Shown here in pieces: positions 1,529 through 30,295 of a DNA stretch of 40,141 bases. Origin of the DNA: Microcaldota archaeon. GTDB lineage: Archaea > Micrarchaeota > Micrarchaeia > Micrarchaeales > CABMGC01. The translations under genes and the position numbers were made by a program. Numbering within the stretch: position 1 is the stretch's first letter; each line of letters begins with the position of its first letter. The notes below the pieces were generated by a model. The model searched no databases and was not told the origin of the DNA. It saw only the letters and a list, made by a program, of their open reading frames with translations. The stretch is from positions 1-40,141 of the forward strand of contig JAJZKO010000005.1 of the NCBI GenBank assembly GCA_021850805.1, written 5' to 3'.

Positions 1529-2749
1529 ATGGCTAAGCAGGAGGTTACTACACAGATAGACGAACTTGTATCGTACCTCAAGACGCATGGCGAGACCAGC
1601 ATAACCGACTTGTCAAAGGCGCTTGTCGTAGGCGAGAGTACGCTTAACGACTGGGCGTCCATACTGGAGAAAGCGGGGATGGTGAAGGTAGTCTACAAGG
1701 CAGGCAGGATGTTTTTATCACCTGTAGAGGCTACCACATCAGAATCCGGGGAAAATGTCTCCAGAATAATACAGGCGGAGAAGGAGGATATACAGTCAGA
1801 GGTCAATAGCCAGCAGGCGCTCCTTAATCAGATAACTTCAAGAATCAACAGCCTGCAGGGGCTGAATGACGAGATAAACAAGCTTTTCAGCACCAAATAC
1901 AAAGACGTAATGGGCACAATAAAGAAGATAAATACGATAGGAAACGAGATGAATGACGCATATAAGAACGCTGTTGCAAAGAAGCGCGAGATAGACAGCT
2001 TATCGGAGGACCTGCGGCAGGGATTGGAGAGGATAGATAAGGAAGGCAGCGGGATAGCTTCATACGAAGCCGATTTCGGAGGTGCGGAGGAGATACTGTC
2101 GGATCTCAAAAAGAAGGCAGACGAGTATAATTCGCTCTCAAAAGGCATGGTAAAGGAGGTTGAGGCGGTTTCCGATGAATACAGAAAGCGCGCTATAAAA
2201 TTATCTGAAGAGATAAAGAAGGAGAAGGAGTCGATAGATTCGTTGCTATCTGCGGCTGAGAAGGAATTGCACTCGCGCAAGGCGCAGTCTGAGCGCTATG
2301 CGAAGGAATTGTCTGGCGTGAAAACCAGAATGGAGCGGAACAAGACGCGCGTAATTGACGATGTAGAAAAGTCTAAGAATGAGCTTTACCGGCTATACGA
2401 CGCCTCCATAAATGAGATAAAGGACCTGAGTCAGAAATTGGAGAGCATAAAAGGAGATTGGAATACCATAATAGAGCTTGATTCCAAGGTAAACGATATA
2501 GAACAGGAGCTTAAAGGAATGCAGAAGAGCAGGGATGAGATAAGGCTGGAGATAGATTCAATAAACAGGCATATAATGTCACTTACAAAGCTCACCTCAT
2601 CGAAGAAGAAGGATGAGGAGCTCAATAAGATTACCCAGACTTCGAGATCGGCAGCAGTGAAGCTCAAGGACCTGAACGACAAGGTCTCAAAAGCTGAAAA
2701 TGATATGAAGGATGTCGGATCTGGAAAGGAAGATACGAAAAAAGGTTAG
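1529..2749 (+). CDS. Winged-helix N-terminus plus long coiled-coil protein, unknown function
   Basis: N-terminal ~65 aa resembles wHTH (TSITDLSKALVVGESTLNDWASILEKAGMVKVVYKAGRMFLSP), then ~300 aa of charged heptad-like sequence. Lies directly upstream of the secretion ATPase. Confidence 0.7.
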   Translation: MAKQEVTTQIDELVSYLKTHGETSITDLSKALVVGESTLNDWASILEKAGMVKVVYKAGRMFLSPVEATTSESGENVSRIIQAEKEDIQSEVNSQQALLNQITSRINSLQGLNDEINKLFSTKYKDVMGTIKKINTIGNEMNDAYKNAVAKKREIDSLSEDLRQGLERIDKEGSGIASYEADFGGAEEILSDLKKKADEYNSLSKGMVKEVEAVSDEYRKRAIKLSEEIKKEKESIDSLLSAAEKELHSRKAQSERYAKELSGVKTRMERNKTRVIDDVEKSKNELYRLYDASINEIKDLSQKLESIKGDWNTIIELDSKVNDIEQELKGMQKSRDEIRLEIDSINRHIMSLTKLTSSKKKDEELNKITQTSRSAAVKLKDLNDKVSKAENDMKDVGSGKEDTKKG

Positions 2750-2764
2750 CAGGCATTGATTCTG

Positions 2765-4393
2765 ATGGATGAGAAAAAGGAGGTTAACGATACCACAAAA
2801 CCGCTGCGGGATGGAGGCAAGCTTACAGTCTCGCAGGATGCAGGGAAGATTGGCGACATAGTAGGGATAGCCAAAGACCCAACTCCAGACCAGAAAAAGA
2901 AGGAGAATGTATTCACAACTTATGAATTGAACGCAAATGGCCTAAGCGTAAGCGTTGTTGTTGCAGACATAGGCTCGTTTGTCCCGGAATACAGGATCAG
3001 TGTTGCGGGGCTTGGGGAAGCGACCAGAGTGCTCCTCATGTCATTCCGGCAGGAGATGCTTAACCTTGTTCCGATAGACCCGAACAGGATATCGGACAGG
3101 GAGTACAATAAGGAGATGAACCAGAAGTATATAAGGGCGTCCTCGTTGGTTATAGATAAGTACCTTCCTCAGACGCCGCCTGATAAGAAGGTAATGCTTA
3201 CCTCGTACATAATAAACATGATGCTGGGCCTTGGGGACATTGAGATTCCGCTTGCTGACGATAATCTTGAGGAAGTTGTAATAAACAGCTCCAAGGAGCC
3301 CATATGGGTCTATCATAAGACTTACGGATGGTGCAAGACCAACATAACACTGAGGGATGAGACCACTATTTATAATGCAGCAGAGCAGATAGGCAGGAAG
3401 GTGGGCAGACAGATAACCAACCTCTCCCCGCTTATGGACGCTGAACTCTCCGACGGATCCAGAGTAAATGCCACACTCTTTCCTGTCTCTCAGAATGGAA
3501 ACACAATAACAATAAGGAAATTCTCCAAGAACCCTTGGACTATGACCAGGCTGATAAGCGGAGGTAGCATTTCGAAGGAGATGGCCGCGCTGATCTGGAT
3601 ATGCGTCCAGAATGAGATAAGCCTTATTCTCTCAGGAGGAACGGCAAGCGGCAAGACCAGCTTCCTGAACTCCATAAGCATGTTCATGCCGCCCAACCAT
3701 AGGATTATATCAGTAGAGGAGACAAGGGAGCTGTCGCTTCCTTCATTTCTGCACTGGGTCCCCATGCTCACAAGGCAGCCGAATCCGGAAGGCAAGGGGC
3801 AGATAACGCTCTATGACCTTATGATTAACGCACTCAGGCAGAGGCCTGACGTGATACTTGTAGGGGAAGTTAGGACAAAGCCGGATGCGCTCACGCTATT
3901 CGAGGCAATACATACGGGGCACGCAGTGTATGGAACAATACACGCGGATAACGCGCAGGATACAATAATAAGGCTGGTGAATCCCCCAATAGACATACCT
4001 AAGCTTATGCTTGGTGCAATCGGAGGCGTAGTTTCCCTCTTCAGGCACAGAAGGAAGGGGATAAGGCGTGTGCTTGAATTCGGCGAAGTGCTCAAGTCAG
4101 GGGATATAAACTTATTGTACAGGTGGAATATGAGAAATGATTCCTTCGTGCAGATATCGGAGATGACAAAGCTGAGCGAGACAATATCCCTATATGGAGG
4201 CTACACAAGAAGTGAATTGATAGACGAGATAAAGGAACGTGCATCTGTACTTGACTGGATGGTCAAGAATAAGGTTTTTGAGCTCAATACGGCAGGATTC
4301 GTTGCAGCACAGTATTATAACAAGAGGGATAAGGTGCTGGAACTTGTAAATAGCGGGGTTCCTTATTCGGAAGAGGCAATAAACAGGCTGTAG
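2765..4393 (+). CDS. Type II/IV secretion system ATPase (FlaI/TadA/VirB11 superfamily)
   Basis: Walker A GGTASGKTSFLNSI, VEETREL, Walker B-like RPDVILVGEVRTKPDALTLFEAIHTGHAVYGTIHADNA. ORF track starts at TTG 2756; first ATG in frame is 2765. Confidence 0.95.
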   Translation: MDEKKEVNDTTKPLRDGGKLTVSQDAGKIGDIVGIAKDPTPDQKKKENVFTTYELNANGLSVSVVVADIGSFVPEYRISVAGLGEATRVLLMSFRQEMLNLVPIDPNRISDREYNKEMNQKYIRASSLVIDKYLPQTPPDKKVMLTSYIINMMLGLGDIEIPLADDNLEEVVINSSKEPIWVYHKTYGWCKTNITLRDETTIYNAAEQIGRKVGRQITNLSPLMDAELSDGSRVNATLFPVSQNGNTITIRKFSKNPWTMTRLISGGSISKEMAALIWICVQNEISLILSGGTASGKTSFLNSISMFMPPNHRIISVEETRELSLPSFLHWVPMLTRQPNPEGKGQITLYDLMINALRQRPDVILVGEVRTKPDALTLFEAIHTGHAVYGTIHADNAQDTIIRLVNPPIDIPKLMLGAIGGVVSLFRHRRKGIRRVLEFGEVLKSGDINLLYRWNMRNDSFVQISEMTKLSETISLYGGYTRSELIDEIKERASVLDWMVKNKVFELNTAGFVAAQYYNKRDKVLELVNSGVPYSEEAINRL

Positions 4394-4401
4394 GTGCTTT
4401 T

Positions 4402-5013
4402 ATGGACTACAACGATGTGCTGAAAGACATAGAGACGGTTGAGAGCAGCGAGACCGCAGATAAGGAAATTGTAGTGGATTTGAGAGGAATATTTTCGCAT
4501 ACGGTCAACACGCGGATATACAGAAAGGCGGACTCTGAATTCCTCATTGATAATTTGGATGAGATTGCCCACGGAAAGAGCATTAAGCAACAGCAAGCAA
4601 GCACTGCGGCAGCAAGCGAACGCATGCAGCAGGTAAGCAGGAAGGCAGGCGAGCGCGGAAATGCAGGGCATTCTTTTTTGGGGCGTGAGAAGGCACTCAT
4701 ATCTGCAGGGGAGGGTGCTATTGGCGGCGGCTTAGCCAAGCTTAAGGAGCGCGAACCGCGCATAGACGAAAGCCAGCTTATACTAAAGACGCTGCCTCTC
4801 AACGAGCAGATATCGGATCTGAGCAAGATTGCTGACGGGCTCAGTGCAGGAAACTTCGATAATGAGCATATGGCGATAATATCCGCAGAGGTAAAGGGGC
4901 TGAAGAATTCGATAAAGAAGAACAAGAGATACGATGATCTTGAGAAGGGCCTGGCAGACGAAAGGAACAGGAAGATGAATGAAGTTATAAAACTTCTTGG
5001 TGGAAAGATATAG
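4402..5013 (+). CDS. Hypothetical protein in secretion/pilus operon
   Basis: 203-aa ORF tightly spaced between the ATPase and TadC-like genes; no family recognised. Confidence 0.75.
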   Translation: MDYNDVLKDIETVESSETADKEIVVDLRGIFSHTVNTRIYRKADSEFLIDNLDEIAHGKSIKQQQASTAAASERMQQVSRKAGERGNAGHSFLGREKALISAGEGAIGGGLAKLKEREPRIDESQLILKTLPLNEQISDLSKIADGLSAGNFDNEHMAIISAEVKGLKNSIKKNKRYDDLEKGLADERNRKMNEVIKLLGGKI

Positions 5014-5023
5014 TGTTGGTTGA

Positions 5024-6040
5024 ATGCCTGATGACCCGAAGAAAGTTGTAGGATACACAAAACCAAAGCGTTTTGCTTTCTTCGGCAAGAAGCAGAAGCC
5101 GATATACAGCGATGCGAGCACGGGCAGCGCAGCCCAGAGTGTTGTGCAGGAGCCCGTAAAGCCGCAGGCGCTGCAGAGAAGCGCACCTGAACGGCCTTCG
5201 CAGAAGAAAGGGACGGGCAACAGCAAGTACATAAAGAATGTGCTCATAAAGAAGAAGGATCTGGCCCTGCAGCTCAAGGAGATAGGGCTCGAGATAACGC
5301 CTTATGCTTTCGTAAGGAATATGATATTGAGGGCTGCTATTATAAGCCTGGTTGTAGGAATAGGTCTTGCCGTAGTATTATTTGTACTTGGGTTTGCGAA
5401 ACTTGTAATACTTGTTCTGCCTCTCGCGTTCGGAGTTTACTTCATGCTTTTCAACAATTTCATGATGTACCCTGCAAAGAGGATAAAGGGGCGCGGCAAG
5501 GAGATAGAGGCGGATATACTCTTTGCGGCAAGGGATATGATGGTAAGCATGCGTTCAGGCATGCCTCTCTTCAACGCCATGGCGACTGTCAGCGTAGGTT
5601 ATGGCGCGGCAAGCAAGGAGTTCGAGAAGATAATAGACAGGGTGCAACTTGGCATGCCCATAGAGCAGGCAATAGAGGATGTAAGCATACATAGCCAATC
5701 CAAGACCTTCAACAGGCTCATGCTCCAGGCAAGCACAAGCATAAAGGCAGGTGCAGACGTAATAAACGCGCTTCAGGAAGTTGTAAGCGAGGTCAGCCAG
5801 GAGAGGGTTATAGAGCTTAGGAGATACGGGCAGAAGCTCAATGCGCTGGCCATGTTCTACATGCTTTTTGGCGTAATATTCCCCAGCATGGGAATCGCAG
5901 TTGCTGCAATATTGTCTACTTTCATAAGTATATTCCCTGTCAATGGGACTACTCTGATACTGGGGCTTGTAGGCATGCTGATAATGCAGATTGTATTCCT
6001 GAATATGATGGGCTCTTCTAGGCCTTCCTACTCGGTGTGA
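5024..6040 (+). CDS. Type II secretion F domain (TadC/FlaJ-like) membrane protein 1
   Basis: T2SF-type sequence FAARDMMVSMRSGMPLFNAMATVSVGYGAASKEFEKIIDRVQLGMPIEQAIEDV plus several TM segments. Confidence 0.88.
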   Translation: MPDDPKKVVGYTKPKRFAFFGKKQKPIYSDASTGSAAQSVVQEPVKPQALQRSAPERPSQKKGTGNSKYIKNVLIKKKDLALQLKEIGLEITPYAFVRNMILRAAIISLVVGIGLAVVLFVLGFAKLVILVLPLAFGVYFMLFNNFMMYPAKRIKGRGKEIEADILFAARDMMVSMRSGMPLFNAMATVSVGYGAASKEFEKIIDRVQLGMPIEQAIEDVSIHSQSKTFNRLMLQASTSIKAGADVINALQEVVSEVSQERVIELRRYGQKLNALAMFYMLFGVIFPSMGIAVAAILSTFISIFPVNGTTLILGLVGMLIMQIVFLNMMGSSRPSYSV

Positions 6041-7035
6041 AGCACATGGCGATATCGTTTGACAGACTGGTTTCAAGAAGCGTTGCGCGATTCATATCGG
6101 AAGAGCTTGACCTTTCCGGAGTAAAGATGACGGTAAGCAAATTCATAGGCATAGCGATAATAGGCGGTCTTGGAATATTCGTTGCCACACCGATAATTGC
6201 CATCTCCCTGCTCAAGATGAATGCGGCGATAGCCGCACTGGCAGGGATAATAATGGCCACAGTATACGAATTTGTGCTTTATTCGGTGCTCGAATTTAAG
6301 GCTGACCAGAGAAAGAGCTTCGTTGAGGGCATACTTCCGGATTATCTGCAGATAGTAAGCGCAAATATAACCAGCGGAGTCGCACTTGACAAGGCGCTCA
6401 TACTTGCGGCGAGGCCGGAGTTCAAGTTCTTCAGCGATGACGTCAAGCTAGTCTCAATGCAGCTTTATGGCGGGGAGACGATAAAGAATGCCTTGGAACA
6501 GCTGGGCAACAGATACAGGTCACAGCAGCTGAAGAGAACAATAAGGATGATATCAGAGGCAATACAGTACGGGGGAGCCATGACGGATCTTCTTAACAAC
6601 ATAGCGAAGGATCTCAGAAACTCCCAGATAATACAGAAGGAAATCTCAGGACAGCTGTTCATGTATTCGATATTCATAGCTTTCGCTGCGGTTATAGGCG
6701 CTCCTGCGCTTTATGCCCTTACAAGCAGGATGATAACCATAACCGATACCGTATGGGCAGGGATAATAAAGCAGAACCCAAATGGCCTGCCAAGCGTTGG
6801 GATATCTCTGATAAAATTCAGCGCACCGCAGGTGACCATATCAGACTACCACAGCTTTGCGATAGCCGCCATAATAATAATAACAGGTTTCTGCGCGTTT
6901 ATAGTATCAACCATAGCGAACGGGACGCCTAAGCGCGGAATAAAGTATCTTCCCGTGTTTATAGCGGCAGGATTCGTTGTCTTCTTCCTGGTAGGAGTTG
7001 TGATGCAGTCAGTTGGAGGAAGCACCGGCGTTTAG
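6037..7035 (+). CDS. Type II secretion F domain (TadC/FlaJ-like) membrane protein 2
   Basis: LPDYLQIVSANITSGVALDKALILAARPEFKFFSDDVKLVSMQLYGGETIKNALEQL and C-terminal TMs. GTG start overlaps the previous stop; ATG at 6046 is an alternative. Confidence 0.87.
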   Translation: MKHMAISFDRLVSRSVARFISEELDLSGVKMTVSKFIGIAIIGGLGIFVATPIIAISLLKMNAAIAALAGIIMATVYEFVLYSVLEFKADQRKSFVEGILPDYLQIVSANITSGVALDKALILAARPEFKFFSDDVKLVSMQLYGGETIKNALEQLGNRYRSQQLKRTIRMISEAIQYGGAMTDLLNNIAKDLRNSQIIQKEISGQLFMYSIFIAFAAVIGAPALYALTSRMITITDTVWAGIIKQNPNGLPSVGISLIKFSAPQVTISDYHSFAIAAIIIITGFCAFIVSTIANGTPKRGIKYLPVFIAAGFVVFFLVGVVMQSVGGSTGV

Positions 7036-7159
7036 GTATTATGGCATTCTGCCTTCGAAGCACACATCGAATGCGGTTTGTCCTGCGTTTAGATCTGGCA
7101 GGATTTATATGGCATCGATTTGGCAACCGGCAGTATCTGGATAGTGCCTAATGCATGCT

Positions 7160-9808
7160 TTAATTATTACCGTAGACTAGACCAAGCGACCCCCATTCTG
7201 ACTCAGTGGTTAGAGCTTTTGAGCTTGAGTATGAGGAATAGTTAGCTGAAACGTAACCATATGATGTATCGTAATTTGTAAGGTTATTTGAGCCCACATT
7301 GTCGTCCGCGTTCCCGTTCAGGGGCCACCAATCAGATAGGTATTGGCCATAATTTATATCAGGAGAGCCGTGTAATCCTCCATTCATTATTGAGTATATG
7401 GCTGACTGGGGAAGTGACGTGCCGTATAGCTGTACATTTGCTATGGAGCCATTGAAGAGCTTTTCCGGAGGGTAGTCCGATCCCGATATCACAACTGGTC
7501 CTGACTGGACATTAGGCATGTATGGAATGGTGGTTGCAAGTACCTGGCTGTTTACGTAGTATGTAACTGACTGGCCATCTAACACTACTGCATAGAAATT
7601 CCACGTATTAGGCTTGAATGTAGGCCCTGAAGTCGGGAAATTGTGGTCGCAGTAAGTCGAGAAGCTTGGAAGCAGATTTGACTGTATCATCATCTCGAAG
7701 CTTGAGTAATCGCATGTCCTTGGGCCATAGCCGAAGACGCCGCAGTAGTATGTAAAGCAGGATATAGACCCGCCAGTCTGCACAGATGTAGGCTTTATCC
7801 ATGCTGTAGCTGTAATCTGCGTGCCTGTAGGAAGCGCTGTGGGGCTCGCAAGATCAAGGTAGGAGCTTATCCCGTTGAAACGTGCAGACTGACCAAACTG
7901 GTTGCTCAGCAGAAGCGATAGATCTGATAAGTAGAGGTGTGGAAGCAGAGGATTGTCAGACTCCGAATTGTTGTTTGATGCCATTATTCCTGGAATCGGC
8001 TCTGGCTGGGGTATCGGATATATGTGGAACATCGAATCGAATGAGTAATTTGGTGGGCTGAAGAATTGCACATCCGTAAGCGTCCCGTTGTTATTGTTCC
8101 CGCTATAATCGTTTGCGTTGCCGTCGAGAGGGTACCAAGCAGAAAGGCCTGCGATACCAGCCGGAGGTATCCCTATGCCATTTGAGAATATCTTCTTTAC
8201 CGCAGGCTGTGAAAGGGATTTGTTGTATATCTGAACATCAGCCACATATCCAGGCAAGTATGCAGAGGCATATGGGAATTCGCCAATATCGAAAGCGGTG
8301 GCGGGCTCTAAAGTCCCTGAGAACGCACCCGTGAAGTTGCTTACACCATTTATGTATAGGCCATATTTGCCTGAGGTTTGGTTGGCCCATGCAACAATGT
8401 TGTACCATCTATCGACCTTAAGGCAGTAGCTTCCGGTGGTTTCTTGCCAGGAAGTTGTTGTAACGCCTGCCTGAACAAAACAGTTCGAATTGAGGAACAT
8501 GGAGATTGTACCGTAGTTGGTCGTGGATACTGCAGAGACTATGCCCGCGTTATCTGAAGGTATGCTTGTCAGATAAACCCATGCGCTTACCGTTATGCCC
8601 TTATTTGATGATGACCAGGAATATGGGGATTTTATGTAGGAACTTGCGCCATTTAGAGATGCTACAGTCCTGTGGTAATTAGAGAATGTAACTATGCCCA
8701 TGTTTGAAAAATTGTAGAACGAATCGCTTTCTGTTGATATGTAATCTGGAGCGTACTGCGATACAAAATAATACCCGTTTTCTATGTAGTTCTTTAAGTT
8801 GCTTATGTCAAGAAGACTTAGTGTAGGGCCGTACAGAAGCACGGGCCTTCCGGTGTATAGGCTGTTAAGCTCTTTCGATGCTGAAGAATAGTTCAGGTAT
8901 GGAACTTTTGGGGTATTCTCAAAGGAATAGGATACAATACCACCATACTTGTTTGCTACGTTGCACGTGGAATTGGTTATTTTTGTAGCATCCGGTGTTG
9001 CCAGGATCAGCGATAGATTGAATGGGTATATCTGGAATGCTGAAGGTATGTATGAGTTTATTGTGGGGCATTCTGCGTCAGCAGCAGGTACGTAATACAC
9101 AGTGCCGTACACGAAGGAGCTGCTTGATCCATATGTAGCATGAGAGTACGGCGAAGTGCCTATAACTGACACAGCTTCCTGCAGGTTACCGAATTTAATG
9201 ATGCGGCTTAAGCCTTGTTCTGCATAGATAAGGTCTTCGGTGCCGTTTATTGGTATTGAAGTTCTTACAGGTATGCTGTAGCTGACGTTGCCTCCGCTGT
9301 AATTTGCCACGATATTCTCCACATAACTTACATTTATATTATAGGGCGAGGACTGGAATACGGATATGTCCGTCTCGTTTATCTTAATATCCGAAGATGG
9401 AAGGCCTGCGGCTTTCGATACGGACGCATTGTAGGAGGCAAGTGTAAGGTTGTTCATATTTGACTGCAGAAAGGCGTATCCCGTGCTGCCAGGCTGCACC
9501 CCGGGGAGAGTCCCATTTCTTATAAGATATGTAAGATACTTACTGAAGTTATCTACAAGGTTGTCTTTCCTTACTGAAGGATCTGATTCATATTTTACCA
9601 AGGTTGATAGCGCACGGGAAGCGCTTGCTGTGGCAAACTGGCCGCTCGTGGAGGATACGTACTTGAAGTAGTTGTTTGAGGACAACGATTGGTAGCTTTG
9701 GCTTGCTATCTGATTGTATCCGGTGCTAAGTTCGGTAAATGCAAAAAGCTCTATGAGAAGCATTACGAATATCAGAAGCATTGTTATTGTCATTATTTGC
9801 GCTTTCAT
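7160..9808 (-). CDS. Prepilin-like N-terminus, LamG-domain repeat surface protein (882 aa)
   Basis: N-term MKAQIMTITMLLIFVMLLIELFAF (short basic head plus TM). At least two LamG-like modules (VSAWVYLTSIP...; ATAWIKPTS...; WYPLDGNANDYSGNNNNGTL; WWPLNGNADDN). Confidence 0.85.
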   Translation of the reverse strand: MKAQIMTITMLLIFVMLLIELFAFTELSTGYNQIASQSYQSLSSNNYFKYVSSTSGQFATASASRALSTLVKYESDPSVRKDNLVDNFSKYLTYLIRNGTLPGVQPGSTGYAFLQSNMNNLTLASYNASVSKAAGLPSSDIKINETDISVFQSSPYNINVSYVENIVANYSGGNVSYSIPVRTSIPINGTEDLIYAEQGLSRIIKFGNLQEAVSVIGTSPYSHATYGSSSSFVYGTVYYVPAADAECPTINSYIPSAFQIYPFNLSLILATPDATKITNSTCNVANKYGGIVSYSFENTPKVPYLNYSSASKELNSLYTGRPVLLYGPTLSLLDISNLKNYIENGYYFVSQYAPDYISTESDSFYNFSNMGIVTFSNYHRTVASLNGASSYIKSPYSWSSSNKGITVSAWVYLTSIPSDNAGIVSAVSTTNYGTISMFLNSNCFVQAGVTTTSWQETTGSYCLKVDRWYNIVAWANQTSGKYGLYINGVSNFTGAFSGTLEPATAFDIGEFPYASAYLPGYVADVQIYNKSLSQPAVKKIFSNGIGIPPAGIAGLSAWYPLDGNANDYSGNNNNGTLTDVQFFSPPNYSFDSMFHIYPIPQPEPIPGIMASNNNSESDNPLLPHLYLSDLSLLLSNQFGQSARFNGISSYLDLASPTALPTGTQITATAWIKPTSVQTGGSISCFTYYCGVFGYGPRTCDYSSFEMMIQSNLLPSFSTYCDHNFPTSGPTFKPNTWNFYAVVLDGQSVTYYVNSQVLATTIPYMPNVQSGPVVISGSDYPPEKLFNGSIANVQLYGTSLPQSAIYSIMNGGLHGSPDINYGQYLSDWWPLNGNADDNVGSNNLTNYDTSYGYVSANYSSYSSSKALTTESEWGSLGLVYGNN

Positions 9809-9829
9809 AGATTCACCATTTCAATAGAC

Positions 9830-12055
9830 CTATTGCCAGGTATAAAAGCTCACGTTGTAAAGACCCGAAGTGCTGCTTGAGTAGTTTTCTGCTGATACGG
9901 GCAGAACCTGGCGGTTAACATTGAATGAACTAGCGAAAGATGGATTTGTATAATTAGTTGGCAGGTACGTTACATTTAGCGCATATCCCGTATATCCGCT
10001 GCCAGAATAATCATTTGCATCTCCTTCGAGAGGCCACCAGCCTATTAAGGCCGCCGACTGGTTTGGTATGCCGTATTTGCCTTCCGAATAGAGTGATGCT
10101 ATCTGGTTTGACGTAAGGCTTTCATTATAAAGCTGCACATTTGATATGAATCCATCGAAATACACTGGAGGAGCAGTATTTGGGGAGTATCCAAAGTAGA
10201 GGGGGTACCCGCTATTTATTTTTGATTTTGATACATACCTTGCAGCAAGTTGTCCGTCTAAGTACTCTGTGACATTTCCTGAAGAGTAGTTATATGAGAC
10301 GGCGACATACGTCCATACCCTTGGCACTACGTTCCCAAAGGTATAATCCTTTACCCCGAATATGACGAAATCGTAAGTGTTGTTTAGTATCCTCAGTGCG
10401 AAGTTCTGGTTATTTTTGCCCTGGGATACTATGGTCCTGTTCCCATTGTAAACCGTTGGATACACCCATGCCCCAATTGTCAGGGCACTTGCGTTGTTGT
10501 ATACCGGTTCGGTCTCTATAAGGCTATTTGTCCCGTCGAAAAATGCAGTGCTTGCGTTGAATGAACTCACTATTCCGTTGTTTGCAAGAGAAGATACGGC
10601 AAGTTTGTAGTTTGAGATGCTCGAATAGGCAGAAATGCCTTCTGCACAACTTCCGAGATTGCTTATATACAAGGAGGACATTTCCGATATGAGCGATGGG
10701 TTTTTATTCGAGGGGCATGCGCCATATGCAAGCAGCTTGGTTCCTGCGGATGTATATAGCCTGCCGTATGCAAGGGACATTGAGCTTGCCAATATGCCAT
10801 ATGAAGAAGGGATTCCGCTAAACCAGTTAGTCTTGCCTGTAGAGATGTTCTGCGAAAGGACATAGTTCTCAGGCCATGCGGTGTACAATGTTCCCCTAGA
10901 ACTTACCGGCACGTTCAATACTATTATGCACTGCCTTCCGTTGCCCCCTAGAGAACCTGAGCCTTTTTTGCATTTGCCTGGAGGAGGGGGAGGCGGAGGA
11001 TTGCATGTCACAGAGCCGGCACAGAATGATGGCTTGTACTGCCATATAAGGTATTTCCCACCTGCAAATGCAAAGGTAGATTCTGTGTTCTGGAATACTA
11101 TCTCATCGTTGTTTATGACTGCACCGTATACTTCAGCGCCTGATGGATAATTGGTTATAGTAGTGCCGTTTAGATATTCTATAATGGCATTTTCGTACTG
11201 CCCGAAAGCCACATAGCTGCTGTTCATCGCAAGCCCCTGCAGCACACTGTAGCTCTGCGACCAGAGCTCCTCTGGATAGCCGGTGTTTGTAGATAGGCTT
11301 ACCATTGAGAGCGTATCTGGAGTCTCTATGGCAAGAAGTTCTCCGCTGGAAGCTATGCTTACTGGATTGTTTGAGAGTGTAAATATCCAGTCTATAGTGC
11401 CGTTTGGTGCGTATAGCGAGTAGACATTGTCCGATGCAGTTCCGAATATTACCTGCCTTCCGTGTACCAGTATAGGCGTAGTAAGGGGGCCTTGGGTGCT
11501 TACTATGTTCTGATCCCACGCAGTAGAGAGCGTCCTTGGATTCATCTCAACTATATCTGTCCCATTTGCATATATCAGCATTCCACCATAAACAGCCAGG
11601 GAAGTTACATTGGTATATGCGTTTTTCTTCCATACGATGGATCCTGATGAGGAGTTTATTGCGTATATGTAGTTGTATGCAGCGAAGAATACCATCCCGT
11701 AATCTGCAACGATAGTTGCATTGGTTATGGAAAACGATGAGTTGTAAGTATAAGATAGGGATGGTGAAGATGGACCTGTTGGGTTATATCCATTCCGTGA
11801 ATAGTTGCTCTGGTACTGATCCCACACTTCTGTAGCAGCAGCTTCCTGCTGCGCCATCTGATATGCCATTGGTACGCTACTGCTTAGAGAAGATAAATTT
11901 GTTGATATAAGATATCCTATTGCGGCTTGAGTCTCAGAGTAGGATGTCGCATACGTGGTCTGTGGTGTGAAGTGGAAGTACACTAGTAGAGAGACGCTTG
12001 CCACAGCAATCGCAAGCGCAAATATCGAATCGAGTGTGAAGGCTATGCCTTTCAT
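9830..12055 (-). CDS. Prepilin-like N-terminus, PQQ-type beta-propeller plus LamG surface protein (741 aa)
   Basis: N-term MKGIAFTLDSIFALAIAVASVSLLVYF; propeller-like repeats (YIYAINSSSGSIVWKKNAYTNVTSLAVYGGMLIYANGTDIVEMNPRTLSTAWDQN); LamG (IGAWVYPT...; WWPLEGDANDYSGSGYTG). Confidence 0.83.
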   Translation of the reverse strand: MKGIAFTLDSIFALAIAVASVSLLVYFHFTPQTTYATSYSETQAAIGYLISTNLSSLSSSVPMAYQMAQQEAAATEVWDQYQSNYSRNGYNPTGPSSPSLSYTYNSSFSITNATIVADYGMVFFAAYNYIYAINSSSGSIVWKKNAYTNVTSLAVYGGMLIYANGTDIVEMNPRTLSTAWDQNIVSTQGPLTTPILVHGRQVIFGTASDNVYSLYAPNGTIDWIFTLSNNPVSIASSGELLAIETPDTLSMVSLSTNTGYPEELWSQSYSVLQGLAMNSSYVAFGQYENAIIEYLNGTTITNYPSGAEVYGAVINNDEIVFQNTESTFAFAGGKYLIWQYKPSFCAGSVTCNPPPPPPPGKCKKGSGSLGGNGRQCIIVLNVPVSSRGTLYTAWPENYVLSQNISTGKTNWFSGIPSSYGILASSMSLAYGRLYTSAGTKLLAYGACPSNKNPSLISEMSSLYISNLGSCAEGISAYSSISNYKLAVSSLANNGIVSSFNASTAFFDGTNSLIETEPVYNNASALTIGAWVYPTVYNGNRTIVSQGKNNQNFALRILNNTYDFVIFGVKDYTFGNVVPRVWTYVAVSYNYSSGNVTEYLDGQLAARYVSKSKINSGYPLYFGYSPNTAPPVYFDGFISNVQLYNESLTSNQIASLYSEGKYGIPNQSAALIGWWPLEGDANDYSGSGYTGYALNVTYLPTNYTNPSFASSFNVNRQVLPVSAENYSSSTSGLYNVSFYTWQ

Positions 12056-12102
12056 CCCATACCGCCCACAATATCATAACATTATGTATATTTAACTGTT
12101 CC

Positions 12103-12654
12103 TCAGCTTACCCCAAAAGTTGTATTTGTCCAGACGAGTACGCGCATCTCCACGGTCTTGTTGTCAAGTGTTACAAACCTATTTGAGACTTCTATGGCTG
12201 TTGCACCACTGGAGAGCGGGTTTTTGCCTATCGACAGGTCTACCCCGCTGCCTGAAAATGTTATGTAGTAGTCGTAGCTGAGCCCCAGCTGTGCCTTCGT
12301 TGCCTGATAATTGTAATTTGACATTCCATACAGGGCCATGACCTTTGACTCGGATAAACTTGAAGATGCGAATCCATTATTCCGATTGCCTAATCCTATG
12401 CTGATGTTGTGCCAGGTAAGGGTGTTTGAGATTGAGATCTGCGAATCCCAGTTTGATGGATATCCTGTTCCAAGAAGCTGTATGCTGAAGCTATTCAGCT
12501 GCATTTCCATGTTCCCAACCCCGTACCCATATGAAACCGCAAATTGGTTGGAAACGTTATACCACACATCCGTAGCTATCAGGACAGCTGCTGTGAATAT
12601 TATCATTGCGAAGAGAGCATCGAATGACCAGAACTGTGCTTTTCTGCTTTTCAT
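12103..12654 (-). CDS. Prepilin-like small surface protein
   Basis: N-term MKSRKAQFWSFDALFAMIIFTAAVLIATDVW (basic head, KA/Q junction, TM), about 150-aa secreted portion, within the operon. Confidence 0.78.
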   Translation of the reverse strand: MKSRKAQFWSFDALFAMIIFTAAVLIATDVWYNVSNQFAVSYGYGVGNMEMQLNSFSIQLLGTGYPSNWDSQISISNTLTWHNISIGLGNRNNGFASSSLSESKVMALYGMSNYNYQATKAQLGLSYDYYITFSGSGVDLSIGKNPLSSGATAIEVSNRFVTLDNKTVEMRVLVWTNTTFGVS

Positions 12655-12664
12655 GCGTTATCAT

Positions 12665-15600
12665 CTATGGTACGGTTATTGAGGAATACGGCTGCGCCTG
12701 CGATTGATATAGCTGCATTACGTCCTGGCTGCTGAGCGCGCTCTTTAGCACCATCAGGTTTGAGATTGTGCCATTAAAGTTCCTATCTAGCTGCCCTATA
12801 GTGCCAGTCTTGAACCCAAGGCAGCCCACCTTTGGGGAGGTATCCCATACAAGCTGACCATCTATGTAGCCGTAAGGCTGTCCGTTGTCAAGCACCAGAG
12901 TCGTATATATCCAGCGGCCTTTGTAGGAGCCTGGGAAGACCTCAGAGTTCGGCACTGTGCCGTTTCTTACTTCGAAACGCAGGTTATTGTTGTTATATTC
13001 TATATCGGCATAGCTTGGATTGTAAAAATCAAATACACCGCCCATATTCCCTGTCGACTCCATCCCTGAATCGTACGACCATGCGGATATTGTGAAATTG
13101 CAGACATTGCTGCTGCCCAGGTTTACTGGCACTGATACCTTGCTGTTTTGCCCGTTAAATAGCAATCCTGCACTGCCTATTGCGTGTGTGCGTGTTGGCG
13201 CAGTTACATTGAACTGTGCATAGGCTATCCCGGAAGCAGTGCCGTTATTTCCGTATCCTGATGTATCGTTTGCGTTGCCGTCGAGGGGCCACCAGCCAAC
13301 AGGATCCGCCTGCTGTATGGGGGAAGCATACTGTCCGTTTGAATATATCTGATATGCCTCGCTCGATGTCAGCGGCTGCCCGTATACCTGCAGATTGGAC
13401 AGGTATCCGTAGAAAGATCTTCCGGCATTGTCTGTTCCCAAGAGCATGCTGTTCGATGGTATGTGTGGATTTGTCTCTGCCGGCGAAGTGTATACAAGCG
13501 CGCCGTTTGAATATACATTATATTCTACTCCGCCGCCAGATGGCTTGGAGGATAATATCAGATTGTACCATGTATCTGGAAGTATTCTGTCCTTTGTACA
13601 GATCCAACGCACCCCTGATTCGAGTATTGAGATATTATATAGGGGGCATGATGTTGGAGATCCGCCAAGGTATAATCCGTATCCGTTTGAGCCTCCGTTA
13701 TCTCCCATCAGGAAGAGGACCTGGCCTGAGGATGGGTTTGTGTCATATACCCATTCGCTGACAGAAGTGGAATTAACTGAGCTGTCCTGAATTGGAATTA
13801 CTATTTTGGATGATCCGGTGAAATTCGCCGCAAGAAGCTGCGACGAATTCGTTACCGTATCATTAGTATACGCTGGAGAATATGCTATGTTGCCGTATTG
13901 CGTGAGGTTGGCAGTATTCTCGTAATCGTTGGAATCGCCGTCAAGAGGATACCATGAGACAAGATAGGTGCTCTTAAGCGGAGGCCCATTTAGACCTTCC
14001 GAATATATTTGTGTTATGTTTTTATTAGGAAGCAGGTAGTTGTATATCTGCACATCGCTTATCTTTCCATCGAAACCATATAATGGCTGCGCATAGCGGG
14101 CTTGATACCCCGTATTGCACCCAATTCCAGAGTAATGCGTGCCTGCGTTATATTCGACTTGGCTTGGTCCAGATTCATTATTTGATCCCTCGAATATGGT
14201 TACTATTCCATTGTCAACTGAGCCGCCTGTAAGTTCTGCAGCGACAAATGTCCACTTTTTAAGGGGAATGTGCAGTGTAGAGTTAAAGTATACCCAGTAT
14301 CCGGGAGTATTTACGTTCCACGAGGAAGCGGTAAGGTTTCCGCTGCCGGTTAGTCCAAAAAATAAAGTATCTGGAGGATTTCCTTCGGTATATATCGCCT
14401 GGTTGTGTTCAGGCGTATATGAATTCAGGTATATCCATGCGGTAATCAGGTAATTTGGGTACGTATTAAGTGGCGCTGAAGTTGAATTTGCCAGGCATGT
14501 TGTGCTTCCGTCAAAATTTATGGCTTGGGTTGGTGACGCCCAGGATGTATTGAAAAGTCTTGAGCCTGAATCCTGTGGAAGATCGTATGTCCTGTTCCCC
14601 GTGCCGAGATTAAGAGGCCACCAGTCAGTAAGGTTTCGCTGCAGCATCTGATTGCCAGTGAAGGCGGTGGCTGTTACCATGGCACTTGTTTCGTACAAGG
14701 GCACAGATAGGTAAGCAGTCGACACCCCATACGCAGTGGTATTATTCGACTCTATGGGCTTTTCTGTACTTGAGAAATTGCCAGAAGTTGCAACGAAGGA
14801 AACAAGCGCATTTTTCAGCGGAGTCCCGCGGTTATTCGTAACGTAGGCATTTATCTGGCTTATCAGGTCGTATGTTATTGTACCTATAAGAGTTCCTGAA
14901 GTGCCGCTGCCTATGAACTGTTTTGTATTTCCGTCAAATGGATACCACGCTGCAAGGTTGTTGACGTTTATGGGTGTACCGCCGATACCTCTCTGGTATA
15001 TTGCATTTATCTGGTTCTCCGTGAGGCTTGTGTTGTATATCTGCAGATTCCCTATGCCACCATAGTAGTATAGCCCTCCGGAAGGCCATCCGGATATCTG
15101 GTAATTATTAGAAGCCGTGCCTGAAGATGGAGGGCCTGCACACTGCTCCATCTGCTGCGGCACGCCGTTTATGTATAGTTTGCTCTCTCCAGTATAAGCG
15201 CCGTTGTAAAAATCTGCCGCAACGAAAACAAGCTTATTTTTTACTACCAGAGAGGGTATGCCGTAGTCATCCTGCAGATATCCAGTAGAGAGGCTGGTGC
15301 TGCCTGTAGTAAAGCCAAAGCAGTAATTGGTGATATACAAGGCGTACCTATTGAAACCGAATGGAACCTCTCCGCTTGGTTGGCCATCCCAGTACATCCA
15401 GAAAGTTACAGTATTATTGCCACCTGAAGTGAGATTTACGGCTCCGCTGTCGGCAGATACATAGGAGCTTCCGCTGAAATTGGCATAGTAGGATGTGCTT
15501 GATGTCGTCTTTATGTATGCAGGCGTATCGTTTTTCATGCTCGTCTGGGAATTGCAGTCAAGATCTATGCATACCTGGCCATCCCTATTCTGCAGCGTTA

Positions 15601-15997
15601 GTGAGCCAGGTGCTGTTGGAATCAGGTATGTCCCCTGCGCATCTACGAATGTGCTGTTTGATACTATGTTCTGCACATCTGCATGGCTTATCGCGCTTAG
15701 TACCTGGCTGCCCTCCTTGGTCTGCAGGAGGATGAATCCGCTCTTGCTTATGGTTATATTGTACGCGCTTACGCTTATCCCGCGAGGAAGCACTATTGAT
15801 GTGCTATATCCGTTCCCAAGAGACGCCGCAGTGTCTATCTGCGAGGCTATGTACTGTGATGCATATTCGAGCTCAGAAGAGAGCTGCTCGTTTAGTGCAA
15901 CTGACCTCTGCGCAAGCAGAACGCCGAATACCAGGAGCGATATGAATAGTATGAATACAAAAAGCACTATGAATTCAAGGGCTATTTGGAATCGCAT
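12665..15997 (-). CDS. Prepilin-like N-terminus, giant multi-LamG surface protein with Ig-like segment
   Basis: N-term MRFQIALEFIVLFVFILFISLLVFGVLL; about four LamG-like modules with WYPFDGNTKQ, WYPLDGDSNDY and WWPLDGNANDTSGYGNNGTA; Ig-like INAYVTNNRGTPLKNALVSFVATSGNFSS. ORF extends to 16033; ATG at 15997 chosen as start. Confidence 0.83.
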   Translation of the reverse strand: MRFQIALEFIVLFVFILFISLLVFGVLLAQRSVALNEQLSSELEYASQYIASQIDTAASLGNGYSTSIVLPRGISVSAYNITISKSGFILLQTKEGSQVLSAISHADVQNIVSNSTFVDAQGTYLIPTAPGSLTLQNRDGQVCIDLDCNSQTSMKNDTPAYIKTTSSTSYYANFSGSSYVSADSGAVNLTSGGNNTVTFWMYWDGQPSGEVPFGFNRYALYITNYCFGFTTGSTSLSTGYLQDDYGIPSLVVKNKLVFVAADFYNGAYTGESKLYINGVPQQMEQCAGPPSSGTASNNYQISGWPSGGLYYYGGIGNLQIYNTSLTENQINAIYQRGIGGTPINVNNLAAWYPFDGNTKQFIGSGTSGTLIGTITYDLISQINAYVTNNRGTPLKNALVSFVATSGNFSSTEKPIESNNTTAYGVSTAYLSVPLYETSAMVTATAFTGNQMLQRNLTDWWPLNLGTGNRTYDLPQDSGSRLFNTSWASPTQAINFDGSTTCLANSTSAPLNTYPNYLITAWIYLNSYTPEHNQAIYTEGNPPDTLFFGLTGSGNLTASSWNVNTPGYWVYFNSTLHIPLKKWTFVAAELTGGSVDNGIVTIFEGSNNESGPSQVEYNAGTHYSGIGCNTGYQARYAQPLYGFDGKISDVQIYNYLLPNKNITQIYSEGLNGPPLKSTYLVSWYPLDGDSNDYENTANLTQYGNIAYSPAYTNDTVTNSSQLLAANFTGSSKIVIPIQDSSVNSTSVSEWVYDTNPSSGQVLFLMGDNGGSNGYGLYLGGSPTSCPLYNISILESGVRWICTKDRILPDTWYNLILSSKPSGGGVEYNVYSNGALVYTSPAETNPHIPSNSMLLGTDNAGRSFYGYLSNLQVYGQPLTSSEAYQIYSNGQYASPIQQADPVGWWPLDGNANDTSGYGNNGTASGIAYAQFNVTAPTRTHAIGSAGLLFNGQNSKVSVPVNLGSSNVCNFTISAWSYDSGMESTGNMGGVFDFYNPSYADIEYNNNNLRFEVRNGTVPNSEVFPGSYKGRWIYTTLVLDNGQPYGYIDGQLVWDTSPKVGCLGFKTGTIGQLDRNFNGTISNLMVLKSALSSQDVMQLYQSQAQPYSSITVP

Positions 15998-16005
15998 CCT
16001 TACCA

Positions 16006-16491
16006 CTATACCACTGGTGTGACGTACACGCACGGAATCGATGGCTCAGATGGGCATGACTGCTGGTAGCTCATGTTGAGCAGGTATGTCCCTGTAGAGG
16101 TAACGCTGTCCAGATTGCCGCTTATGTTTGCGGTGGTGTATGAGGTTATCTCGCTTGTGCCTGAAGTCGCCTGTATGACAAATGTTATCTGATGCCCCAC
16201 GCCATTTGAATTGGACCCGCCAACGTATATGTTGAGCACGCCTGGAGGCACCTGCACCTGCACAAGCTGCCTTGCGGGATAGCCCTCCGATCCTACCAGT
16301 GTCGCAATGCTGGATATTTTTGACGCGGCCTGCTGGCTGGCTGCTGCGGACAGTGAAGCATTTGCATTTGCTATCTGTATGAATGCAAAGACCAGCAGTG
16401 GAAGAAGCAGCGCTAAACCGAAAGCAAGGGTGACAAGCAATTCGAAACTTGCCTGCGCCCTGATTTTTCTGAGCCGCATACTATTCTTCAT
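16006..16491 (-). CDS. Type IV pilin-like protein
   Basis: N-term MRLRKIRAQASFELLVTLAFGLALLLPLLVFAFIQIANANASL: RA/QASFE class III-like processing site with +5 Glu, then TM. Confidence 0.85.
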   Translation of the reverse strand: MKNSMRLRKIRAQASFELLVTLAFGLALLLPLLVFAFIQIANANASLSAAASQQAASKISSIATLVGSEGYPARQLVQVQVPPGVLNIYVGGSNSNGVGHQITFVIQATSGTSEITSYTTANISGNLDSVTSTGTYLLNMSYQQSCPSEPSIPCVYVTPVV

Positions 16492-17617
16492 CTAACCCAT
16501 ACCTGATCTTTCCAGACGCGTTTTTCTTGCGCTCCTTTGTAGATTTTATTATTTCGTATAGCTTATTAGATATTTCCCTTATCCCCTGTTCTATGGAGTA
16601 CCCTTCTGCAGAAGTCGATATGCGGCCCTTGCCGGATAATTCCAGGGATGCGCGGAATAGGTATGTCTTTGCCTTCTCCCTTTTTATATTGATAGTTACG
16701 CGCTCTACTGCCACGCTTGCAAACCTGTCAGCTTTTGCAGCAAGGGAGCCTATCTCGCCTTCTATAAATTCATAATAATCCCGTGTATATCGATCCAGTC
16801 CGGATATCTCTATGTCGGGACTGCTGGAATCTGTGCTTTCGGAGAGATACCTGAAAACATCGGTTATTGTAAGTATACCGACAGGATCAGACCCTTTTGT
16901 TACTACCAGTGATGATATCTTATTGTTTATCATCTTCTTTATTGCCTCGTTTGCAGGAAGCTGGTAACCTATAGTGTACACATTTTTTTCACAGATTGTT
17001 CCGACAGAATTCCTCTGCACGCCTTTGCCATTTCCGTATTCTGGATTTCTGGAATTAGCGTACAGTAAATGGCTTGATATGTTATTCTTAGTCAGAATGC
17101 CATATAGCCTTCCGTTGTCCATGACTATTAGCCTGTTGAGCTTGTTCTCCTCCATGATCTTCCTTGCTGCGCTTACCTGCATCTCTGGAGGAATGCTTAC
17201 AAGCGGATTTGCCATTAATTCCCTGACAGAGAGCTTGCTTACCATTTTTAATGAGAGTATTGCGCGCAACATGTCGGATCTCCTTATTACTCCGGAAACC
17301 GACTTGCCATTGTGGAATGGGAGCGCTTTTGCAGAGTTTTCATACATTGCCTTTATTGTCTCGTCGATGTCCGTATCCGCAGTTACATAAGGCACCTTCC
17401 TTGCAAGTTTGCCAAGCGGATAGCTTTTGCTCACCTGAAACATGCCAATGCCGGAGATATTGCCATACTCCACTGTACCGAAATATGCTCCCTGCTTGGT
17501 TACTATAGCTATTCTGCTGTCCTGCAGTTTTGCCAGGGCCTCTTCAAGAGGAGTTTTGTAATCATACATTGGCACCTTAGATATTAGTTCGCGCGGTATT
17601 TTTTGGAATGCGGGCAT
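16481..17617 (-). CDS. CBS-domain protein (four CBS-like repeats) with possible HPF/RaiA-like C-terminal domain
   Basis: Repeated CBS signatures (VRELMANPLVSIPPEMQVSAARKIMEENKLNRLIVMDNGRLYGILTKNNI; GYQLPANEAIKKMINNKISSLVVTKGSDPVGILTITDV). C-term ERVTINIKREKAKTYLFRASLELSGKGRISTSAEGYSIEQGIREISNKLYEIIKSTKERKK. Confidence 0.88.
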   Translation of the reverse strand: MPAFQKIPRELISKVPMYDYKTPLEEALAKLQDSRIAIVTKQGAYFGTVEYGNISGIGMFQVSKSYPLGKLARKVPYVTADTDIDETIKAMYENSAKALPFHNGKSVSGVIRRSDMLRAILSLKMVSKLSVRELMANPLVSIPPEMQVSAARKIMEENKLNRLIVMDNGRLYGILTKNNISSHLLYANSRNPEYGNGKGVQRNSVGTICEKNVYTIGYQLPANEAIKKMINNKISSLVVTKGSDPVGILTITDVFRYLSESTDSSSPDIEISGLDRYTRDYYEFIEGEIGSLAAKADRFASVAVERVTINIKREKAKTYLFRASLELSGKGRISTSAEGYSIEQGIREISNKLYEIIKSTKERKKNASGKIRYGLDEE

Positions 17618-28331: not shown

Positions 28332-29036
28332 CTATTTGAATATGTTGAAGCCTTTTGTCGTTATCTCGAAAGGCATGGTTGACTTCACATGGTCAGAGCG
28401 CCGCATCTTTACCACAGATATAACATACTGTGAGCTTCCTGACACATTCACCTTATTAAGCCAGATAGTGCCATCAAACATGAATGTGCCGAATAGGCCC
28501 GTAGTCTCTTCCGATACCAGTGATGGAGTCTCAACAGTAATGAAGCTTGTTACGCCAAGGTTTCTGAGGTTCTGCACCAATAATGCAACCGAACGGGTGA
28601 ATATCCTATCGCTATCGGCGTATGGCCTCAGACTGCTGATCGAATCCACCACAACTATCTGCGAATTATTCGATTTTGAGTTTCGTGCTATCTGTGTTAC
28701 AAACTTTTGCCAGTTTTCCGTTGATTTCAATACCTCCGTTATGTCGTAACTGTATACGCCTATGGTATTCTTGCTCACGAGTTCGTCTACATCATCGAAT
28801 GTGCTGAATGCACCTCCTGCATTTTCGAGGAGCGATGATTTGCTTTCTTCAAGTGTTATAAAAGTGCTTGGTATGTCTATTTTTGCATTTCTGTACAGCG
28901 CTTCGAAGCATAGGAGAGTTTTTCCAGTGCCTGCATCTCCGGATATGAGAACCTGATTACGCTTAGGTATACCGCCATATATAAGCTCATCGAGCCCGTT
29001 TATTCCTGTATTTACCCTTTCTAGTTCGTTTGACAT
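28332..29036 (-). CDS. KaiC-like RecA-superfamily ATPase (single domain), copy 2
   Basis: VNTGINGLDELIYGGIPKRNQVLISGDAGTGKTLLCFEALYRNAK; FITLEESKSSL; IVVVDSISSLRPY. ORF opens at 29099; ATG 29036 preferred. Confidence 0.92.
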   Translation of the reverse strand: MSNELERVNTGINGLDELIYGGIPKRNQVLISGDAGTGKTLLCFEALYRNAKIDIPSTFITLEESKSSLLENAGGAFSTFDDVDELVSKNTIGVYSYDITEVLKSTENWQKFVTQIARNSKSNNSQIVVVDSISSLRPYADSDRIFTRSVALLVQNLRNLGVTSFITVETPSLVSEETTGLFGTFMFDGTIWLNKVNVSGSSQYVISVVKMRRSDHVKSTMPFEITTKGFNIFK

Positions 29037-29067
29037 ATAACCAACCATATACCCATTTGACAAATTT

Positions 29068-29799
29068 TCAGTGCTGCTCCTTCTCCAGCAGGAGCACATT
29101 GATTCCTGAAGGGCTTATCTCGTAAGGAACTGTATCGAAACTGTGGTTAGCACCACGCATCTTTATTATCTCCATTGACGGGGTTCTGCCTCCGCCTCCG
29201 CTTCCGGAATACATGCTTATTATTCCATCGTATATGAAAAACTCCGGCTGAAACATCATTTTTTCCTTATCTGCAGTTTCCATTTCCATTGTAAGCATGC
29301 TGGTGACTTTCATATCCCTCAGGCTTGAGGCAAGATTCATGGAAACGTCACGGTAGATATATGTATCTTTTATGAGAAGTTTAATAACAGAAACAGAGTC
29401 TATGACAACGCGCGTGGCGTGCAATGAAGAGATTGCAGATTCTATGCTTGCAACGAGACCGCCAAATGTGTATTGCTCTTTCTCGCTATCATAGGAGAAA
29501 TAGTACCTAGTCTGATCCCTACCCAGTATTGTTATTGTCTTGCTCTCTATTAATGCCTCCAGATCTTTAAACTCGGTGAACGCATCAGACGCATTCTGTA
29601 TAATCATGTCGGTGTTCTCTTCTAGAGAGATCATAAGGCCTACATTGCCCTTCTTTGCGTTTTTGTACAGGTATTCGAATCCGAGCAGGGTCTTTCCGGA
29701 ACCCGGACCCCCTGCTACTATGACCTGATTGGCTTCTGGGATTCCCCCGTACAGCATATCGTCCAGTCCCTGTATCCCAGTACTTACTTTTTCCCTCAT
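29068..29799 (-). CDS. KaiC-like RecA-superfamily ATPase (single domain), copy 1
   Basis: VSTGIQGLDDMLYGGIPEANQVIVAGGPGSGKTLLGFEYLYKNAKKG; MISLEENTDMI; RVVIDSVSVIKLL. Confidence 0.93.
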   Translation of the reverse strand: MREKVSTGIQGLDDMLYGGIPEANQVIVAGGPGSGKTLLGFEYLYKNAKKGNVGLMISLEENTDMIIQNASDAFTEFKDLEALIESKTITILGRDQTRYYFSYDSEKEQYTFGGLVASIESAISSLHATRVVIDSVSVIKLLIKDTYIYRDVSMNLASSLRDMKVTSMLTMEMETADKEKMMFQPEFFIYDGIISMYSGSGGGGRTPSMEIIKMRGANHSFDTVPYEISPSGINVLLLEKEQH

Positions 29800-29806
29800 C
29801 AGACCA

Positions 29807-30295
29807 TCAGGCTTTATTATTAGTTATAAGTTTATACGTTTCTAGTGCCTTTTGCGCAAGTGTCTTGTCAGGGTGCACATCCATTGCGCGGACTACGCTT
29901 ATCAGGCTCTCGAGTTCAGGTTCTTTGCCTATCCCAACAATAAAGAATATGGCCACCATATAAACGAGGTGATTCTTGAACTTTAGGTCTGATATCAAAG
30001 ATCCGATGCGAGGGTCTATAGGTATTGATGCTGCAGAGAGCAGCTTCTTTATGCCATCCGCGTCAACGTCTTTTCCTGAATATGCAAGTGTTCCTGCTGC
30101 GGATAGATAAGGAGCGGCATCTTTTAGATGCTGTGCTACTGCCGGATCTTTCATTGCCCTGTTAAGCTCTGACTCTACTATGAACTGCATGCTCTTCGCT
30201 ACCGCATCTACTACCTGCGACAGTTTCGCATATATTTTCTCGCTTTCCTCAGACAAATCATTTGGTGCTGCTGTCAGTTCATATTCCGAAGACAT
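29807..30295 (-). CDS. Uncharacterised protein with ribosomal stalk P1/aL12 N-domain-like segment, in KaiC operon
   Basis: 162 aa; segment LSAAGTLAYSGKDVDADGIKKLLSAASIPIDPRIGSLISDLKFKN resembles aL12 [41 protein letters not shown] (recalled consensus). 7 nt upstream of KaiC copy 1. Confidence 0.65.
   Translation of the reverse strand: MSSEYELTAAPNDLSEESEKIYAKLSQVVDAVAKSMQFIVESELNRAMKDPAVAQHLKDAAPYLSAAGTLAYSGKDVDADGIKKLLSAASIPIDPRIGSLISDLKFKNHLVYMVAIFFIVGIGKEPELESLISVVRAMDVHPDKTLAQKALETYKLITNNKA

Follow-up and report, generated by a model that had tools for sequence, protein, structure and literature searches.

A putative type IV pilus locus with giant LamG-bearing minor pilins in a Micrarchaeota archaeon

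The window analyzed here is a stretch of 40,141 nucleotides on a contig (C5) of an archaeal assembly that comprises 882 kb and is 84% complete. All open reading frames named in an earlier note, which had been made from the DNA letters alone, are present at the positions given there, and they form two convergent arms (Table 1). The note had described the plus-strand arm as a secretion module with a wHTH/coiled-coil protein, an ATPase, a 203-aa protein, and two TadC/FlaJ-like proteins, and Pfam matches to T2SSE and T2SSF bear this out. The ATPase scores 253 bits against the FlaI model and belongs with the VirB11/GspE-type assembly ATPases. The nearest solved structures are 2oap ("Type II secretion system protein", E = 4.9e-66) and then FlaI, and a strong ortholog with 54–68% identity is found in most of the 118 genomes that were searched. 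TadC1 and TadC2 are both T2SSF proteins above the cut-off, as is characteristic of TadC/FlaJ platform proteins, and no other T2SSF match was found in the genome; TadC2 aligns with its relatives at 45–60% identity. The matches of CC in Pfam and NCBIfam (MarR/HTH and coiled coil) are all weak, and a homologue of CC lies upstream of the ATPase in all 60 relatives' loci examined. A homologue of p203 is present in 54 of these 60 loci, and its C-terminal domain is predicted with a pLDDT above 90; p203 has no usable match in Pfam, NCBIfam, or PDB sequences, and no fold match at E ≤ 0.001. Judged from their sequences, the genes of the plus arm make up a machine of the type IV pilus (T4P) kind. An identity as an archaellum was rejected, as no FlaF/G/H set is adjacent to the ATPase and the sole match to FlaC, located in CC, is weak (E = 0.04).

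Table 1. Genes of the machine arm (plus strand) and the pilin arm (minus strand) in the window.
Feature	Coordinates	Strand	Assignment	Basis
CC	1529..2749	+	wHTH-like N-terminus and long coiled coil; putative cytoplasmic accessory protein of the pilus operon	ORF, weak matches
ATPase	2756..4393	+	T4P assembly ATPase, FlaI/TadA/GspE family	PF00437 (T2SSE), 115 bits
p203	4402..5013	+	small, conserved, putatively cytoplasmic; three-helix domain at the C-terminus	203 aa, synteny and model
TadC1	5024..6040	+	membrane platform protein	PF00482 (T2SSF), 53 bits; order conserved
TadC2	6037..7035	+	membrane platform protein	PF00482 (T2SSF), 55 bits
pil882	7160..9808	-	giant, prepilin-like, two LamG; no acidic residue at mature positions 1–16	PF13385, 118 bits, two stretches
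pil741	9830..12055	-	giant, prepilin-like, PQQ-type propeller and one LamG	PF13360, 36.9 bits, and PF13385, 68 bits; both above cut-off
pil183	12103..12654	-	minor pilin of ordinary size	alignment: Q invariant at +1, D (once E) at +6
pil1110	12665..15997	-	giant, prepilin-like, four LamG, E5 pilin N-terminus	PF13385, 149 bits, four stretches
pil161	16006..16491	-	minor pilin of ordinary size; canonical RA-QASFE junction with E5	E5 in 14/14 orthologs; operon position conserved
CBS	16481..17617	-	CBS-domain protein, first gene of the pilin operon	PF00571, 119 bits, three stretches

The genes of the minus arm are tightly packed and encode five class III prepilin-like proteins and the CBS-domain protein, and three of the five minor pilins (pil882, pil741, and pil1110) are giants of 741–1110 aa. 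The sizes and domains that the earlier note had assigned to these giants were largely correct: LamG is found in all three and PQQ_2 in the 741-aa protein, but the Ig-like segment is sub-threshold (Big_1, E = 0.0024, below the cut-off), and we do not claim such a domain for pil1110. The largest protein is indeed present, but its length is probably 1110 aa and not the 1122 aa given for it, as the likely start is the ATG at 15997, which gives MRF-QIALEF, and the GTG at 16033 is less likely. The domain content is conserved among orthologs, with LamG in 23 of 23 pil882 sequences, PQQ_2 in 28 and LamG in 29 of 30 pil741 members, and three to four LamG in the pil1110 orthologs within the order. Structure prediction further corroborated the LamG modules: in the AlphaFold prediction for pil882 (mean pLDDT 74), the N-terminus forms a helical stretch of 70 aa, a beta sheet resembles that of pilins, and structure comparisons match the LamG folds to laminin LG4-5 (E = 9.7e-15) and to pentraxins. 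Concerning the smaller pilins, the profile of pil183 matches 212 of the 301 genomes of the phylum; against the PDB it gave no match, and its scattered sub-threshold matches, which are to DUF7285/7287/7288 only, were given no evidential weight. A homologue of the CBS protein is found in 15 relatives' loci. Its C-terminus weakly resembles S30AE (ribosome-hibernation-like; E = 0.012, below the cut-off), which hints at an energy-dependent control. Two KaiC-like ATPase genes, recognized by eye, and a small helical protein lie in tandem at 28332–30295 of the window; KaiC-family proteins have been proposed as archaeal T4P regulators (PMC4858521).

The assignment as prepilins is based on the N-termini, which in all five families combine a short basic head, K or R at position −2, and a transmembrane segment, as is typical for class III prepilins. 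K or R stands at position −2 in 147 of the 149 readable N-termini from the five ortholog families, G, A, or L predominate at position −1, and Q occupies position +1 in 35/35 pil183, 24/24 readable pil1110, and 14/14 pil161 sequences. In four of the five families, an acidic residue is nearly invariant at mature position 5 or 6, being D6 in 37/37 pil741 sequences, D6 or E6 in 35/35 pil183 sequences, E5 or D5 in all 24 readable pil1110 sequences, and E5 in all pil161 sequences. In pil882, an acidic residue before position 17 occurs in none of 39 sequences. Taken from these alignments, the prepilin pattern of the five families is far beyond chance, and the earlier claim that the five non-CBS proteins are prepilin-like is thereby upheld. 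That the giants could be ordinary proteins with signal peptides or membrane anchors was ruled out by the invariant class III pattern and by the small pilin orthologs in distant families. The early acidic residue of bacterial pilins pairs with the N-terminus of the neighboring subunit, and in type II secretion, GspK is the only pseudopilin that lacks E5 and caps the tip. Because pil882 alone lacks the early acidic residue, we propose it as a GspK-like cap, and the analogy suggests a corresponding role at the tip. One prepilin peptidase of the A24 type, which the earlier note had demanded for its reading, was found in the genome at C20:73890, outside the window and on another contig than the locus (PF01478 above the cut-off, with the motifs FDVFNNRNIPN and GAGD), and such a peptidase is present in 105 of 118 genomes, comprising the source genome and its relatives.

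The two arms belong together also in relatives. In a set of 60 neighborhoods, the order CC-ATPase-p203-TadC1-TadC2 facing pil882-pil741-pil183-pil1110-pil161-CBS recurs, and this convergent order spans two families of the Micrarchaeota order. In a named set, whose records are mostly titled Candidatus Micrarchaeota, 61 loci were informative in that they extend at least 4 kb downstream of TadC2, and 55 of these have one or more pilins of the cassette in the convergent arrangement; the two sets share genomes and are therefore not independent. The co-occurrence of the arms had been set beforehand as a refutation test, and it was passed. In a minority of relatives (e.g., L073, L110, L117, and L118), the pilin arm lies away from the machine arm. 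One relative, G102, has neither an ATPase ortholog nor a member of the pil183 family and also gave no LamG match; this joint absence is suggestive, but it is a single case at 88% completeness.

How the giants may have originated can be read from distant families, in which the same cassette is retained with pilins of ordinary size, mostly lacking LamG: homologues of pil1110 have 132–196 aa there, those of pil741 have 148–226 aa, and those of pil882 have about 480–690 aa. At one such locus (L218), TadC1-TadC2 face pil882-pil741-pil183-pil1110-pil161-CBS in the order seen in the window, with a pil741 of 172 aa and a pil1110 of 186 aa; p203 was not detected at this locus. Because the cassette has this small size in distant families, the giants can be regarded as minor pilins with added domains, and the best reading of the sequences is that LamG, plus the propeller in the case of pil741, was added onto ordinary minor pilins in this order of archaea. 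The lectin and propeller modules thus look grafted on. Adhesin domains would have been moved onto the minor pilins, with no separate tip protein, and the small-pilin state is still visible in other families of the phylum. Other giant heads exist as well: in the distant family f15, pilins of 1269–1659 aa with a AQTAVEFLTTYGW-type stalk and no LamG match are encoded beside a pil183 homologue (L209:10723-19269 and L212:4886-9865).

The genome encodes further pilins outside the locus, which were counted through searches by family and by pattern (YGWA gave 14 matches, against 0 in the reversed control). Besides the three giants, there are seven stand-alone LamG proteins of about 300 aa, five of which have a textbook AQSAMEYLMTYGWAILII-type pilin N-terminus, and the other two are cut by contig ends just inside the N-terminus. 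Four ordinary stand-alone pilins have 156–198 aa and are of the AQSAMEYL type. In another stand-alone pilin (L239:168-1562, C20 near 64371), a Kelch-repeat head replaces LamG on the same stalk (PF24681, E = 9.8e-13; Kelch_1 above the cut-off). Two further T2SSE ATPases are encoded outside the locus; the one on C19 is an orphan, and the other lies on C16. The latter is part of a second T4P-like locus (L025:3411-9460), which has a divergent ATPase and two short membrane proteins without Pfam match, together with several prepilin-like proteins without LamG, one of which has 445 aa and no known domain. As this locus would be a second machine with its own pilins, the user of the stand-alone LamG pilins could be either machine.

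One of the closest described systems is Clade 1 of the archaeal T4P, the Methanococcus Epd type, whose loci combine one ATPase and two TadC genes with five or more minor pilins, the major pilins being encoded at other sites (Makarova et al., 2016; PMC4858521). The window shares the single ATPase, the two TadC genes, the five minor pilins, and probably the location of the main pilins elsewhere. However, DUF2341 proteins have been proposed and modeled as tip adhesins of Clade 1 (PMC4858521), whereas in the window the minor pilins themselves carry LamG and propeller domains as fusions, and DUF2341 is not among the Pfam matches of the proteins of either arm. Also, EppA is often encoded inside Clade 1 loci (PMC4858521), whereas the A24 peptidase belonging to the window's genome is on another contig. 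The likeness to Epd/Tad pili asserted in the earlier note therefore has to be divided. The Epd part is in line with how the probable counterpart of this locus in Ca. Mancarchaeum acidiphilum Mia14 was typed in print (PMC5498576). The Tad part was rejected, as the locus is without a Flp pilin: no Flp match was found in it with Pfam or NCBIfam, and its smallest pilin has 161 aa.

T4P loci and an expansion of LamG proteins, some of them linked to T4P, were described for Mia14 in 2017 (Golyshina et al., 2017; PMC5498576), and both were judged important for host contact (PMC5498576; PMC6336744). In the same paper, one FlaK-like peptidase was reported, and MIA14_0170-0177 was typed as a T4P of the Methanococci/Methanothermobacteria/Thermococci group (PMC5498576). 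In the relative G076, the same locus (L072) lies at a position that fits MIA14_0170-0177, which makes the latter probably the same locus as that of the window. In the main text of that paper, the word "pilin" does not occur and the LamG proteins are not identified as class III pilins; a grafted minor-pilin cassette, an acidic-residue pattern, or mosaic arrays are likewise not described there (PMC5498576). Our literature search for LamG together with pilin, carried out in a limited library, found LamG pilins described nowhere. What appears to be new is the recognition of the LamG proteins as class III pilins, together with the grafting of domains onto a minor-pilin cassette found across the phylum, its pattern of acidic residues, and the mosaic arrays discussed below.

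The evidence favors a lectin-bearing minor-pilin cassette on a filament, with the genes of the shaft pilins at other places in the genome. We consider it reasonably likely that this locus holds the genes for an archaeal T4P machine and for a minor-pilin cassette dedicated to it, which would place lectins and a propeller at the tip and lectin heads along the shaft, and which would act as an adhesin for glycans of a host or neighbor. The single peptidase found in the genome would trim all five prepilins. By analogy to GspK in the type II secretion pseudopilus, pil882 would cap the filament, followed below by the D6 pair (pil741 and pil183) and then the E5 pair (pil1110 and pil161). The shaft would be built from AQSAMEYL-type stand-alone pilins, some small and some with a LamG head. 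The tip would thereby present about seven LamG domains and a propeller, with more lectin heads along the length, and the filament may serve as an adhesin for cell-surface glycans.

Bacterial minor-pilin tip complexes (T2SS GspH/I/J/K, or T4aP with PilY1) likewise consist of a few unequal pilins, one of which has no early acidic residue. The bacterial set is thought to prime and cap the filament, with a PilY1-type adhesin as a separate protein; in the window, however, the adhesin-like domains sit within three of the pilins. The resemblance of the unequal cassette with its one acidic-free member to GspH-I-J-K could also mean that the machine builds a short T2SS-like pseudopilus or a membrane-anchored complex, with the giants as an adhesive surface coat and no long filament. 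That the giants are far larger than shaft pilins would fit this, but we regard it as improbable, since the same genome has the shaft-suited stand-alone pilins of 156–198 aa and, in archaea, pili are known to be made by T4P loci that encode several minor pilins (PMC4858521).

For the filament with a lectin-bearing tip, the question is what the heads bind. LamG_3 domains are not always lectins, and we infer the display of lectins on a surface filament from the sequence. As LamG_3 domains bind many ligands and nothing in the sequence names the target, a true pilus could also bind the cell's own surface glycans, a biofilm matrix, or environmental polysaccharide without involvement of another organism. 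We believe this to be unlikely, although less so than the pseudopilus, as nearly every genome in this order of small-genome archaea contains LamG and Mia14, a cultured relative, has been observed on cells of Cuniculiplasma (PMC5498576). In electron micrographs cited in the same paper, small ARMAN-type cells touch larger wall-less cells via pili-like structures (PMC5498576). The pilus itself probably carries the adhesins by which symbiont-like cells hold other cells or polysaccharide. This bears on the question of how DPANN archaea recognize and hold their hosts: the locus supplies named and conserved candidate adhesins, namely the three giant lectin-bearing minor pilins and, in addition, the stand-alone LamG pilins, and the machine with the peptidase is a proposed surface route for them. 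Attachment can be tested with recombinant heads.

The genes of the stand-alone LamG pilins have their 5′ ends in common, while their LamG bodies are unrelated and their tails have been exchanged; in places, these genes are amplified in tandem. In the genome of the window, the LamG pilin genes on C13 and C16 share a stalk with 95% identity (25/31 fourfold sites), and their LamG bodies are unrelated (31% of nucleotides). In the relative G076, a single contig of 952,257 bp, at least 11 LamG pilins are encoded within about 25 kb (L273:3305-19270 and L274:5658-7467), four of them in a repeat spaced by 1974 bp that includes two small genes, which by eye resemble a nucleotidyltransferase/HEPN toxin-antitoxin pair. 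In this array, the stalk is constant, the LamG bodies are unrelated, and the tails are recombined: one pair shares stalk and body to 100% and the tail to 81%, and another pair has unrelated bodies and tails that are identical at 30/30 fourfold sites. From the sequences compared, such mosaic LamG pilins are a signature of recombination between modules. We tentatively raise the possibility, which we hold to be less probable than not, that Micrarchaeota vary pilus recognition by recombining lectin heads behind a constant stalk, with a repertoire that feeds a filament tipped by three fixed giants; archaea would then have their own counterpart to the antigenic variation of pilins, serving partner recognition. 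A constant stalk with exchanged exposed domains would also be expected from receptor escape, and viruses that use the pilus as receptor, rather than host attachment, could drive the domain variety of the stand-alone pilins. We think this very unlikely; the three operon giants are conserved in their domain content, so that adhesion or structure must explain at least those.

The genome also contains two copies of a region of several kb beside a LamG pilin (L024 on C23 and L026 on C16), with a 789-aa protein, a HerA/VirB4-like ATPase, and small genes. The contigs C13 and C23 break inside the shared 5′ end of the pilin genes, and the doubled region is either a duplication or a strain variant.
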